Positions 42,000 through 46,002 of a stretch of DNA of 64,000 nucleotides are shown in pieces; the stretch's first letter is position 1, and every line of letters starts with the position of its first letter. The notes beneath the pieces are model-generated. The model saw only the letters and a list, made by a program, of their open reading frames with translations, did no database searches and had not been told where the DNA came from. Origin of the DNA: Nitrosopumilus piranensis (GTDB taxonomy: Archaea; Thermoproteota; Nitrososphaeria; Nitrososphaerales; Nitrosopumilaceae); assembly GCF_000875775.1 (NCBI RefSeq), contig NZ_CP010868.1:1251707-1315706 (forward strand), written 5' to 3'. The translations under genes were made by a program, and so were the position numbers.

Positions 42000-42215
42000 T
42001 CAAGCCATGGTAACTACCCCAGGGTAGTTGCAGGACTTGAAATAGGGCACGGTATTGGTCTGGTCTGTCTTTACAGACATACAAATTGAATGAAATTGCT
42101 CAGCAGTACAAAGACTACAATCTCTACAAATCATGATGTTAGGTTTCATACAATGAGCACATTTTGTGTGCTCTGTCAATTTTCCACCACATCTTCTGCA
42201 TGATTCATCAGGCAT
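42000..42215 (-). CDS. Small Cys-rich zinc-ribbon protein (71 aa)
   Basis: Three Cys pairs are visible: CRRC (6-9), CAHC (19-22) and CRDCSLC (31-37), plus later single Cys. This suggests two zinc knuckles in the first 40 residues. The hairpin AACTACCC/GGGTAGTT lies inside the final codons. It is convergent with geranylgeranyl reductase. The role is unknown; similar small ribbons often assist translation or DNA enzymes. Confidence 0.7.
   Translation of the reverse strand: MPDESCRRCGGKLTEHTKCAHCMKPNIMICRDCSLCTAEQFHSICMSVKTDQTNTVPYFKSCNYPGVVTMA
42012..42029. other. Short hairpin at the 3' end of a zinc-ribbon gene
   Basis: AACTACCC and GGGTAGTT flank two bases, giving an eight-base inverted repeat in the last codons of the minus-strand gene, between two convergent genes. 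It could be a terminator or a processing hairpin, or chance. Confidence 0.35.
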
Positions 42216-42987: not shown

Positions 42988-43266
42988 GTGAGCTGGAGCA
43001 CGACACGCTGCTACGGCAGAGGAAACTCCTCCCTCCATACAGGAAATGTGATCTGGAGATAGATAATCAGAGATGATTGGCAACGGAGCAGAAAAAAATC
43101 CAATATGGCGCACTATGATGGCAAAACCTGAGGTTTCCATAAAAGGAATGAAAAAGCCGACCCACATGGAGCAAAGCCAAACAGAACTGTAAGTTCCTGT
43201 ACCAAGTTCAGGTAGGCTGCAAAGCGAAATATCGTGAAAACAGAAGGAGGGTTACTCCCAGCACAC
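42988..43266 (+). ncRNA. rnpB: RNase P RNA
   Basis: This 279-base stretch has no sensible ORF and shows the conserved RNase P elements in order: GAGGAAACTCC at about 43018-43028 (CR-I), GAGCAAAGCCAA at 43169-43180, and ACAGAA followed by GGAGGGTTACTCC at 43240-43257 (CR-V). CCCTCC after CR-I pairs with GGAGGG of CR-V (helix P4), and the ends pair (GCTGG with CCAGC, GTG with CAC) as helix P1. The RNA cuts 5' leaders from tRNA precursors. End points may be off by a few bases; a T-rich stretch follows. Confidence 0.9.
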
Positions 43267-43270
43267 ACTT

Positions 43271-43570
43271 TTAATTTTTAATTTCATAGTATTCAACTGG
43301 ATGAGAAAACTGTCTGTTATAATCAACTTCTCTCCAAAATTTTTCTTCGTCAATTTTTTTGCCTTCAAAAATCCAAACGTTTAGAATTTTTTGCATGTAC
43401 ATTTGTGTAGTCTCATCAATCTCAGGTCTAGTACCAGTTTCTTTTTCTATTCTATCCCTTTCTTCTTTGAATGTTTTAAGTAGTCCTTTGAGAGTTTCCC
43501 CATTAATTTGAGCTGCCTTTTTTGCTTTAGCAAATTTCAAATCTTTTTTAAAATTGGATAAAAAACCCAT
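43271..43570 (-). CDS. Hypothetical protein (99 aa)
   Basis: A mostly helical, charged protein; residues 5-45 form an amphipathic basic helix and the end is beta/aromatic-rich (VDYNRQFSHPVEYYEI). No domain is recognised. Its stop lies four bases past the RNase P RNA end, so the two transcripts run towards each other. Confidence 0.65.
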   Translation of the reverse strand: MGFLSNFKKDLKFAKAKKAAQINGETLKGLLKTFKEERDRIEKETGTRPEIDETTQMYMQKILNVWIFEGKKIDEEKFWREVDYNRQFSHPVEYYEIKN

Positions 43571-43598: not shown

Positions 43599-44966
43599 CT
43601 AACTCATAGAGTTGGCTTGTTCTTTACAGATTTCTGCATTACATCCACATGTTGCATCACACAAACATGCACCTTGCATTTCACAATCACATTCAGATCC
43701 CATATCGGCTGATGCTGCACACCCACATGCTGCCTCTTCAATTGCACCCTCAGGTTGTGGAGGATTTGGTTCAGTGGGTTCAGATGTTTCATCATAAACA
43801 CTACGTGTCTGCTGATAACCAGCATCGTCTTTTAGTTGGGCTTCTCCTCTGTTGGTCTGATAACCACCTGATGAGGCGCTAGTTTGATAGCCTTGTAATC
43901 TACTTGGATCAATTCCTTGCTGACCCTCTTTTGTGTTCTTTAGTTGACGATTACTAAACATAAAGAATGCACCACCTGCAATTGCGGCAATTGCAGCCAT
44001 TCCATAAATAATCATAACAGGGAAATCACCTGTAGAAGTCGTAGCATAATCTTCTGGAGGAGTTGGAGTTACACCTGCAATCTCTACACCATCAAAAATA
44101 TCTAAAGCACCAAATCCAATTGCATACAAGTTTCCTTGATCTGAAGATTGAACACTTCTAACAACATATGGTTGGTCTGCAACAATTTCTGCTTCAAAGA
44201 CTCTTTCGACTTGTCTTCCTTCTCTAATACTACTTTCACCCATAGTCCAACTAGAAACTACAAATCCAGAAATTTCTTGACTTAGACCAAAGGTTCCAGC
44301 ATCAACATTAATTCCTGTTGGATCAAATAAGAAATGCCAGTTTGTTAATGGTTGTTGCAAGATAAAGTCAGCATTAATGAGATTTTTTCGTAAAACATCT
44401 TCAGCCTCAGTGCCTACAAAGAATGCTGCAGCTTCAGGTTCTACTTCAAGTAAAATGTTTATTGGAAAATTAATTTCATGTCCGTCAATGACAACATCAC
44501 CATTTGCAGTTAGTCCTCTCCACCCCAAATCAACGAGTGTTTTTTGAGAGTCTTTGGTAATCACATAATTTGTTAAAGTTCCTTCAAGGATTACTCTATA
44601 ATCAACAGATGTGTTGATGTTTCTTGCTTTAAGATGGATATCATAAGAAACATTCAAGTCAGAAATATGAGCCTGACTTCCATCTGCTTTAATTTTATCA
44701 TTAAGTTGTCTTATCAAATTTTGAACACCAGGATCTGATGAATCAGCAGTTCCTTCAATGGTCCATTCTTGGCCTCTTAAGACATCAAAGAGTTGGCCAC
44801 CATTTGGGTACTCGATGAATACGGTCTTTTGATAATTCATCTTAAATGGAGAACTTTCACTGTTTGGATTGATTTTTGCATCCATTTGAGCAGCCCATAC
44901 AGGACTAGTAGAACCAATAACAAGTAGACCAGCAAGTAAAATTGTTAAAGTGACTGCCCTAGACAC
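43599..44966 (-). CDS. Membrane protein with extracellular domain and CxC-rich C-terminal tail
   Basis: This 455-residue protein has an N-terminal signal peptide (residues 1-26), about 285 residues of beta-rich extracellular domain, one transmembrane helix (about 316-339) and a 115-residue Gln/Gly/Ser/Pro-rich tail. The last 42 residues hold nine Cys at 414, 416, 426, 428, 434, 436, 440, 442 and 447, as four CxC pairs plus one. By topology the tail is cytoplasmic and looks like a metallothionein-type metal site. I do not recognise the extracellular domain. A metal-sensing or storage role is inference. Confidence 0.75.
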   Translation of the reverse strand: MSRAVTLTILLAGLLVIGSTSPVWAAQMDAKINPNSESSPFKMNYQKTVFIEYPNGGQLFDVLRGQEWTIEGTADSSDPGVQNLIRQLNDKIKADGSQAHISDLNVSYDIHLKARNINTSVDYRVILEGTLTNYVITKDSQKTLVDLGWRGLTANGDVVIDGHEINFPINILLEVEPEAAAFFVGTEAEDVLRKNLINADFILQQPLTNWHFLFDPTGINVDAGTFGLSQEISGFVVSSWTMGESSIREGRQVERVFEAEIVADQPYVVRSVQSSDQGNLYAIGFGALDIFDGVEIAGVTPTPPEDYATTSTGDFPVMIIYGMAAIAAIAGGAFFMFSNRQLKNTKEGQQGIDPSRLQGYQTSASSGGYQTNRGEAQLKDDAGYQQTRSVYDETSEPTEPNPPQPEGAIEEAACGCAASADMGSECDCEMQGACLCDATCGCNAEICKEQANSMS

Positions 44967-45081: not shown

Positions 45082-46002
45082 ATGATTACAGTTTTAGCAG
45101 GAGGGACAGGTTCAGTCAAACTAGTCAGAGGATTAGTTTCACAGGAATCCAAAGTTAATGTAGTCAGCAATGTGGGAGACAATTATTGGTTGTATGGACT
45201 GTATGTATGCCCAGATATTGATACAATTGTTTATGGATTAGCAGATTTGCTTGATCAAGAAAGAGGTTGGGGAATTAAAAAAGACACATTCAATTTTTTG
45301 CGTCAGATGGAAGTTTTTGGAGAAGAGACATGGTTTAGAGTAGGAGACAGAGATGCTGCAACACATCTAATTAGAACAAACATGTTAAAGAACGGAAAAA
45401 ATCTTAGCGACATTACAAAATGGATGTGTGAAAAATTTGCAGTTAGTGCAAACATCATTCCAGTTACAGACAACAGCATTGAAACTAGAATTATTACAGA
45501 TAAAGGAGAATTACATTTACAAGAATATTGGGTAAAGCATAGAGGAAAAGATCCTGTTGAAGGAATTCAATACATCGGAGCTGACAAAGCCCGCCCTAAT
45601 CCTGAAGCAGTAAATGCAATACACGATGCAGACATGGTAATTTTAGCTCCAGGGAATCCATTGACTTCAATTGGACCAATGCTCCAGATCAAAGGAATTA
45701 GAAAAGAGTTATCCAAAATAAAGAAAAAAGTTGTAGCAATTAGTCCATTAATCGGAGATAATGCAATTAGCGGTCCTGCTGCAAAATACATGCAGGCTGC
45801 AGGCATAGAGTCAAATGCTTATGGATTAGCAAAGATGTATTCTGACGTATGTTCTAACATAATTGTTGATACCAAAGATAGAATGTTAGTAAAGAAGATT
45901 CAAAGTCTAGATATGAAAGTTTTTGAGACAAAAATTACTATGAAAAATAAATTAGCCGAAGATGCATTAGCAAATTTCATCCTAAAACAAGTACACGTAT
46001 AA
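45082..46002 (+). CDS. cofD: 2-phospho-L-lactate transferase (F420 biosynthesis)
   Basis: CofD joins the phospho-lactyl group to the deazaflavin Fo. The 306-residue protein has the family start ITVLAGGTGSVKLVRGL, NVGDNYWLYGLYVCPD, the GDRDAATH segment and ILAPGNPLTSIGPML. A Shine-Dalgarno-like AGGAG is about ten bases before ATG. The next gene, cofC, begins one base after its stop. Together they form a two-gene F420 unit. Confidence 0.94.
   Translation: MITVLAGGTGSVKLVRGLVSQESKVNVVSNVGDNYWLYGLYVCPDIDTIVYGLADLLDQERGWGIKKDTFNFLRQMEVFGEETWFRVGDRDAATHLIRTNMLKNGKNLSDITKWMCEKFAVSANIIPVTDNSIETRIITDKGELHLQEYWVKHRGKDPVEGIQYIGADKARPNPEAVNAIHDADMVILAPGNPLTSIGPMLQIKGIRKELSKIKKKVVAISPLIGDNAISGPAAKYMQAAGIESNAYGLAKMYSDVCSNIIVDTKDRMLVKKIQSLDMKVFETKITMKNKLAEDALANFILKQVHV

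Follow-up and report, generated by a model that had tools for sequence, protein, structure and literature searches.

Ammonia-oxidising archaea depend heavily on copper. We know of no membrane protein with a metallothionein for its cytosolic tail, and among open-licence papers no metallothionein is named for these archaea. The described systems closest to the locus considered here are the metallothioneins (Pfam PF00131 and PF02067; bacterial SmtA, mycobacterial MymT), of which MymT is a small Cys-rich Cu(I) protein (PMC7558416), and Csp (PF03860/DUF326), a Cys-rich cytosolic metal store that is built as a four-helix bundle and has been reported for Nitrososphaera viennensis (PMC7785015). The gene described below, from a 64,000-nucleotide stretch of the Nitrosopumilus piranensis genome (hereinafter the window), codes for a membrane protein ending in a nine-Cys module that resembles both and matches neither.

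Domain organization of the membrane protein

The gene, its parts and the two neighbors that mark its locus are as follows.

43599..44966, − strand: whole gene, single-pass membrane protein of 455 aa, GTG start; orthologues in 116/117 good family genomes
44889..44966, − strand: signal peptide, residues 1-26, AxA-AQ site, then invariant A26-Q27 (hydropathy and invariant columns)
44031..44888, − strand: extracytoplasmic domain, residues 27-312, Cys-free; AlphaFold pLDDT near 90 for most of its length
43953..44030, − strand: transmembrane (TM) segment, residues 313-338 (about 315-338 by hydropathy), from hydropathy and charge bias
43794..43952, − strand: conserved juxtamembrane segment, residues 339-391, GQQGIDPSRLxGYQTSxSSGGYQTNRGEAQL...
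43734..43793, − strand: hypervariable Pro-rich linker, residues 392-411; majority-residue frequency 0.49 versus about 0.8 elsewhere
43602..43733, − strand: nine-Cys module, residues 412-455, CGC-x9-CDC-x5-CLC-x3-CGC-x4-C
45082..46002, + strand: cofD (PF01933), divergent neighbor and locus marker, not a proposed part of the mechanism; divergent in 76/76 loci with enough flank
42988..43266, + strand: RNase P RNA gene (Rfam RF00373, 194 bits), neighbor on the other side and locus marker; 65/65 loci with enough flank

The GTG start is identical in all 29 genus orthologues checked, and the 455-aa product has only two hydrophobic segments, namely the signal peptide and the TM segment. All nine Cys (positions 414, 416, 426, 428, 434, 436, 440, 442 and 447, forming four CxC pairs and one single Cys) are confined to the final 42 residues, the rest of the protein being Cys-free. 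The chance of finding nine Cys in 34 residues is about 2e-11 (binomial, with the 0.9% Cys frequency of the window ORFs), and the runner-up in Cys density among window ORFs of at least 150 aa has four Cys per 30-residue stretch. Because the 18 residues before the TM segment contain no Lys or Arg and the 18 residues after it contain three, the nine-Cys tail is predicted to be cytoplasmic. The preliminary description of this locus, which had proposed a signal peptide, a large ectodomain, one membrane helix and a cytoplasmic tail with nine Cys, four of them as CxC pairs, was thus accurate in its coordinates and layout, and the charge bias agrees with the side on which it had placed the tail. The single paralogue in the window genome carries the same juxtamembrane segment and lacks the Cys tail.

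Searches of the full protein against Pfam and NCBIfam returned no match over the cut-off; a candidate relationship to DUF5305 was dropped, as it appeared at E 0.045 in just 1 of 23 members. An alignment confined to the genus gave a poor initial structure model (mean pLDDT 51); distant relatives were then added, and the AlphaFold model from this deeper alignment displays a confident ectodomain followed by a disordered tail and TM-to-module linker. A fold search of the ectodomain model against the PDB recovered nothing below E 0.001, and no known family corresponds to the ectodomain either. We also considered a C-terminal sorting signal (e.g., PEFG-CTERM) for the tailless relatives discussed below; it was unsupported, the sole NCBIfam match being a sub-threshold Loki-CTERM (E 3.7) in one of them, and the window protein itself matches none of the NCBIfam sorting-signal models, Loki-CTERM included.

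A near-universal stand-alone relative of the tail and its likeness to metallothioneins

The tail has a stand-alone homologue of 44-48 aa, found in 81/82 good Nitrosopumilaceae genomes (in the window genome at C1:1440619-1440759) and in none outside this family, in samples covering other families of the order and the phylum; a scan of viral contigs for the start of the protein likewise recovered nothing. Its gene lies in a neighborhood, c4-Cys-c5-c1-c3-c2, that is conserved across genera and whose members mostly have no Pfam names. Nitrosopumilus sp. Nsub has another short protein rich in Cys (L241, about 1482-1640, + strand; MACGCSSNNEGCVDANCDCQKTGTCTCGSDCNCAANKK), which differs from the nine-Cys module.

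Like metallothioneins, the stand-alone form is short, contains about 20% Cys (nine residues) arranged in multiple CxC pairs, and has a Cys-dense core devoid of a recognisable fold; MymT is similar to it in size. Unlike them, it passes no curated cut-off of a described family model and has no PDB relative by sequence: the best Pfam matches among module members were PF00131 at E 0.015 (in 5/17) and PF02067 at E 0.031, both below the gathering cut-offs, and NCBIfam gave no match. The sub-threshold matches could reflect composition, and on the strength of its sequence we call the module metallothionein-like without assigning it to the metallothioneins. Csp shares with it the character of a Cys-rich, cytosolic protein, but whereas Csp is a four-helix bundle the nine-Cys module is short, predicted to be disordered without metal, and built of CxC pairs. 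PF03860 has no match in the window protein or in any of the Nitrosopumilaceae genomes and is present in 23 genomes of other families; this complementarity, which is partial and holds at the family level only, would leave room in Nitrosopumilaceae for another thiol store. A zinc ribbon or zinc finger was rejected, as all pairs are CxC with no CxxC and there is no Pfam zinc-finger match.

Distribution, fixed locus and conservation

Relatives with the ectodomain and TM segment occur in 116 of 117 good Nitrosopumilaceae genomes and extend to several further families of the same order, in which the proteins read over their whole length end shortly after the TM segment with a few basic residues. The one genome with no membrane protein (G129; 1,645,259 bases) also gave no match to a CofD query, so that the stretch may be missing, and we do not interpret this absence. 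cofD/cofC and the RNase P RNA gene are the constant neighbors, and cofD also adjoins tailless relatives at three loci (L189, L196 and L197). The ORFs called across the RNase P RNA gene (42988-43266) are spurious. A 99-aa gene (43271-43570) was dropped as a candidate partner, since it lies downstream in just 4/68 loci. Near the locus there is also a 71-aa ORF with CxxC pairs (window 42000-42215, − strand), which shows weak, sub-threshold ZZ/zinc-ribbon matches and whose proximity to the locus is conserved in other genera. In the window genome, neither the membrane-protein gene nor the stand-alone Cys gene has a metal transporter, metallochaperone or metal regulator beside it.

The tail was compared at 72 loci that carry it, all from named genomes (Nitrosopumilus, Nitrosarchaeum and unclassified Nitrosopumilaceae). 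None of the 72 orthologous tails lacks any of the nine Cys, and both TGT and TGC occur at each site. Conservation is 0.84 in the module and 0.80 in the ectodomain, versus 0.49 in the linker ahead of the module, a pattern that looks like selection on a functional module. Together with the homology of the tail to the family-wide 44-48 aa CxC protein, this strengthens the earlier characterization of the tail as metallothionein-like. The preliminary description had further made its reading depend on conservation of the tail Cys; that part stands wherever the tail is present, but the tail itself proved optional, with other C-termini in its place in several lineages that still keep the membrane protein.

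Exchange of the tail and of the stand-alone gene

At the fixed locus the tail alternates with a stand-alone version of the Cys module, with an unrelated and mostly Cys-free 83-aa domain (KMINV), and with a PKG[WF] motif. On a phylogeny of 128 membrane-protein sequences stripped of their tails, the distribution of tail types needs 20 changes versus 48 with shuffled labels. PKG[WF] tails make up the basal part of the family. One large clade carries predominantly the Cys type, and inside it the tail has switched to the stand-alone Cys type (two forced, four by parsimony), to KMINV (four) and back to PKGF (several); the tree comes from a quick search with SH-aLRT support, so these counts are approximate. 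In some lineages (L307, L326) the ORF stops with no recognisable module. In genome G208 one relative (L327) has a C-terminal CxxC pair motif similar to a zinc ribbon (LCFKCGYYTLTSQNHCSNCGAARPT), which may represent yet another tail type.

The stand-alone-type tail was recovered at nine loci, mostly with the start Met included. In two genomes it is 98% and 96% identical in DNA to the genome's own stand-alone gene, which indicates that the tails of these two genomes arose by recent copying or conversion. The KMINV tails present a different picture. For G034 and G222, DNA identities do not favor capture of the stand-alone gene from the same genome: the two tails share 0.83 DNA identity and are only 0.67 and 0.78 identical to their own stand-alone genes. 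The tails of G034, G222 and L175 are more alike mutually than to the stand-alone genes, and that of G022 stands apart; two or more origins followed by spread through recombination would be a safer reading than four captures. KMINV tails are found in 3 of the 10 family genomes with a stand-alone KMINV gene versus 0 of the 72 without one (Fisher p=0.0014, a value that ignores relatedness).

The stand-alone KMINV proteins of Nitrososphaeraceae and other families share with the Cys module both a gene slot and the tail position, though the two are unrelated in sequence. In three other families, the stand-alone KMINV gene adjoins c5 and c1 or c4 in 26/27 loci, and the slot it occupies in these ammonia-oxidising archaea is that of the stand-alone Cys gene in Nitrosopumilaceae, in the opposite orientation. 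The two thus substitute for each other at the level of independent genes as well as at the tail position, which we regard as the most surprising result of this analysis. KMINV proteins are 83-85 aa long, have at most one Cys, located at the C-terminal end, and by eye follow a beta-alpha-beta-beta-alpha-beta order; they have no relative in Pfam or the PDB, a lysozyme match at E 0.14 being weak and not taken as real. In G022, the stand-alone KMINV gene (L210:2750-3004) lies near lookalikes, by eye, of DtxR-type and NikR-type metal regulators (L210:4166-4621 and L210:5236-5619). Adjacent genes at L209:4157-5128 (− strand) and L209:5511-6218 (− strand) code for proteins of 323 and 235 aa with KGTLPKGF repeats and a C-terminal motif identical to an alternative tail of the membrane protein; the one that was scanned has no Pfam family over the cut-off.

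Discussion

We favor, with a probability of roughly 0.6, the reading that this is a type I membrane protein of ammonia-oxidising archaea (with a signal peptide, a folded ectodomain, a single TM helix and a cytosolic tail) serving as a membrane platform that presents interchangeable cytosolic modules, here a putative thiolate metal-binding one. The topology signals, the conservation, the fixed locus, and the modularity and exchange of the tail are seen directly in the sequences. In the window lineage the module is a copy of the small nine-Cys protein that almost every Nitrosopumilaceae genome encodes. It would fold around a metal-thiolate cluster and keep Cu(I) or Zn(II) at the cytosolic side of the membrane. 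Buffering of that metal in the cytosol would fall to the soluble copy, and its tethered counterpart may serve as a local reserve or, once loaded, alter the state of the membrane protein. Nine Cys would suit a cluster of the Zn3Cys9 or Cu(I)4-6 kind, known from the beta domains of metallothioneins. We infer metal binding by the module from its composition, conservation and cytosolic placement; as for the identity of the metal, copper is suggested by just the physiology of ammonia-oxidising archaea and the absence of Csp from the family. Because unrelated, Cys-poor modules can replace the Cys module, the tail probably plays an accessory part, with the core function residing in the ectodomain, and is unlikely to be the purpose of the protein. 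The KMINV and PKG[WF] tails are nearly or wholly Cys-free, and metal binding cannot therefore be the membrane protein's whole purpose. Since the Cys module and KMINV also replace each other as stand-alone genes at a conserved slot, we tentatively entertain a broader possibility, in which the membrane protein is a docking platform and the two modules are functionally equivalent parts of a single, undescribed system for handling metal or redox state at the membrane.

Clearly less likely than the favored reading is the proposal that the tails are docking handles recruiting a common cytosolic partner or assembly, which the stand-alone copies would compete for or join, with any metal being structural only. 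It would account for the exchange of three sequence-unrelated tails at one locus, for the existence of each tail type as a separate protein (stand-alone Cys, stand-alone KMINV and the 323-aa KGTLPKGF-repeat protein), and for the filling of the same slot, c4-X-c5-c1, by KMINV and the Cys protein in different families. However, an invariant set of nine Cys, with four CxC pairs, goes far beyond the needs of a docking peptide, and the stand-alone Cys protein is retained even where the membrane protein has lost its Cys tail. A transmembrane sensor, put forward for metal in the preliminary description and extended here to redox state, in which loading or oxidation of the Cys cluster would switch the ectodomain or the oligomer state, strikes us as unlikely: while strict Cys conservation, cytosolic placement and a folded extracytoplasmic domain permit a signaling architecture, there is no output domain and no partner regulator in the neighborhood, lineages with Cys-free tails keep the membrane protein, and the hypervariable, model-disordered linker between the TM segment and the module is poorly suited to transmitting a signal. 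We give very little credence to functionless exchange, whereby the 3′ end of the gene would be recombination-prone and take up any small ORF, its tails being left to drift. The several tail types, the hypervariable linker and the module-less ORF ends would fit such a process, but the same few modules recur, the module is conserved as strongly as the ectodomain, and its Cys codons vary only synonymously; this codon-level conservation already disfavors it.

Under the favored reading of a membrane platform with exchangeable modules, the near-universal nine-Cys protein and its membrane-tethered copy are concrete candidates for handling metal through thiols in the cytosol of Nitrosopumilaceae. The exchange of tails, mirrored as it is at the stand-alone slot, provides an unusual natural experiment, which points to a testable functional equivalence of unrelated small proteins.
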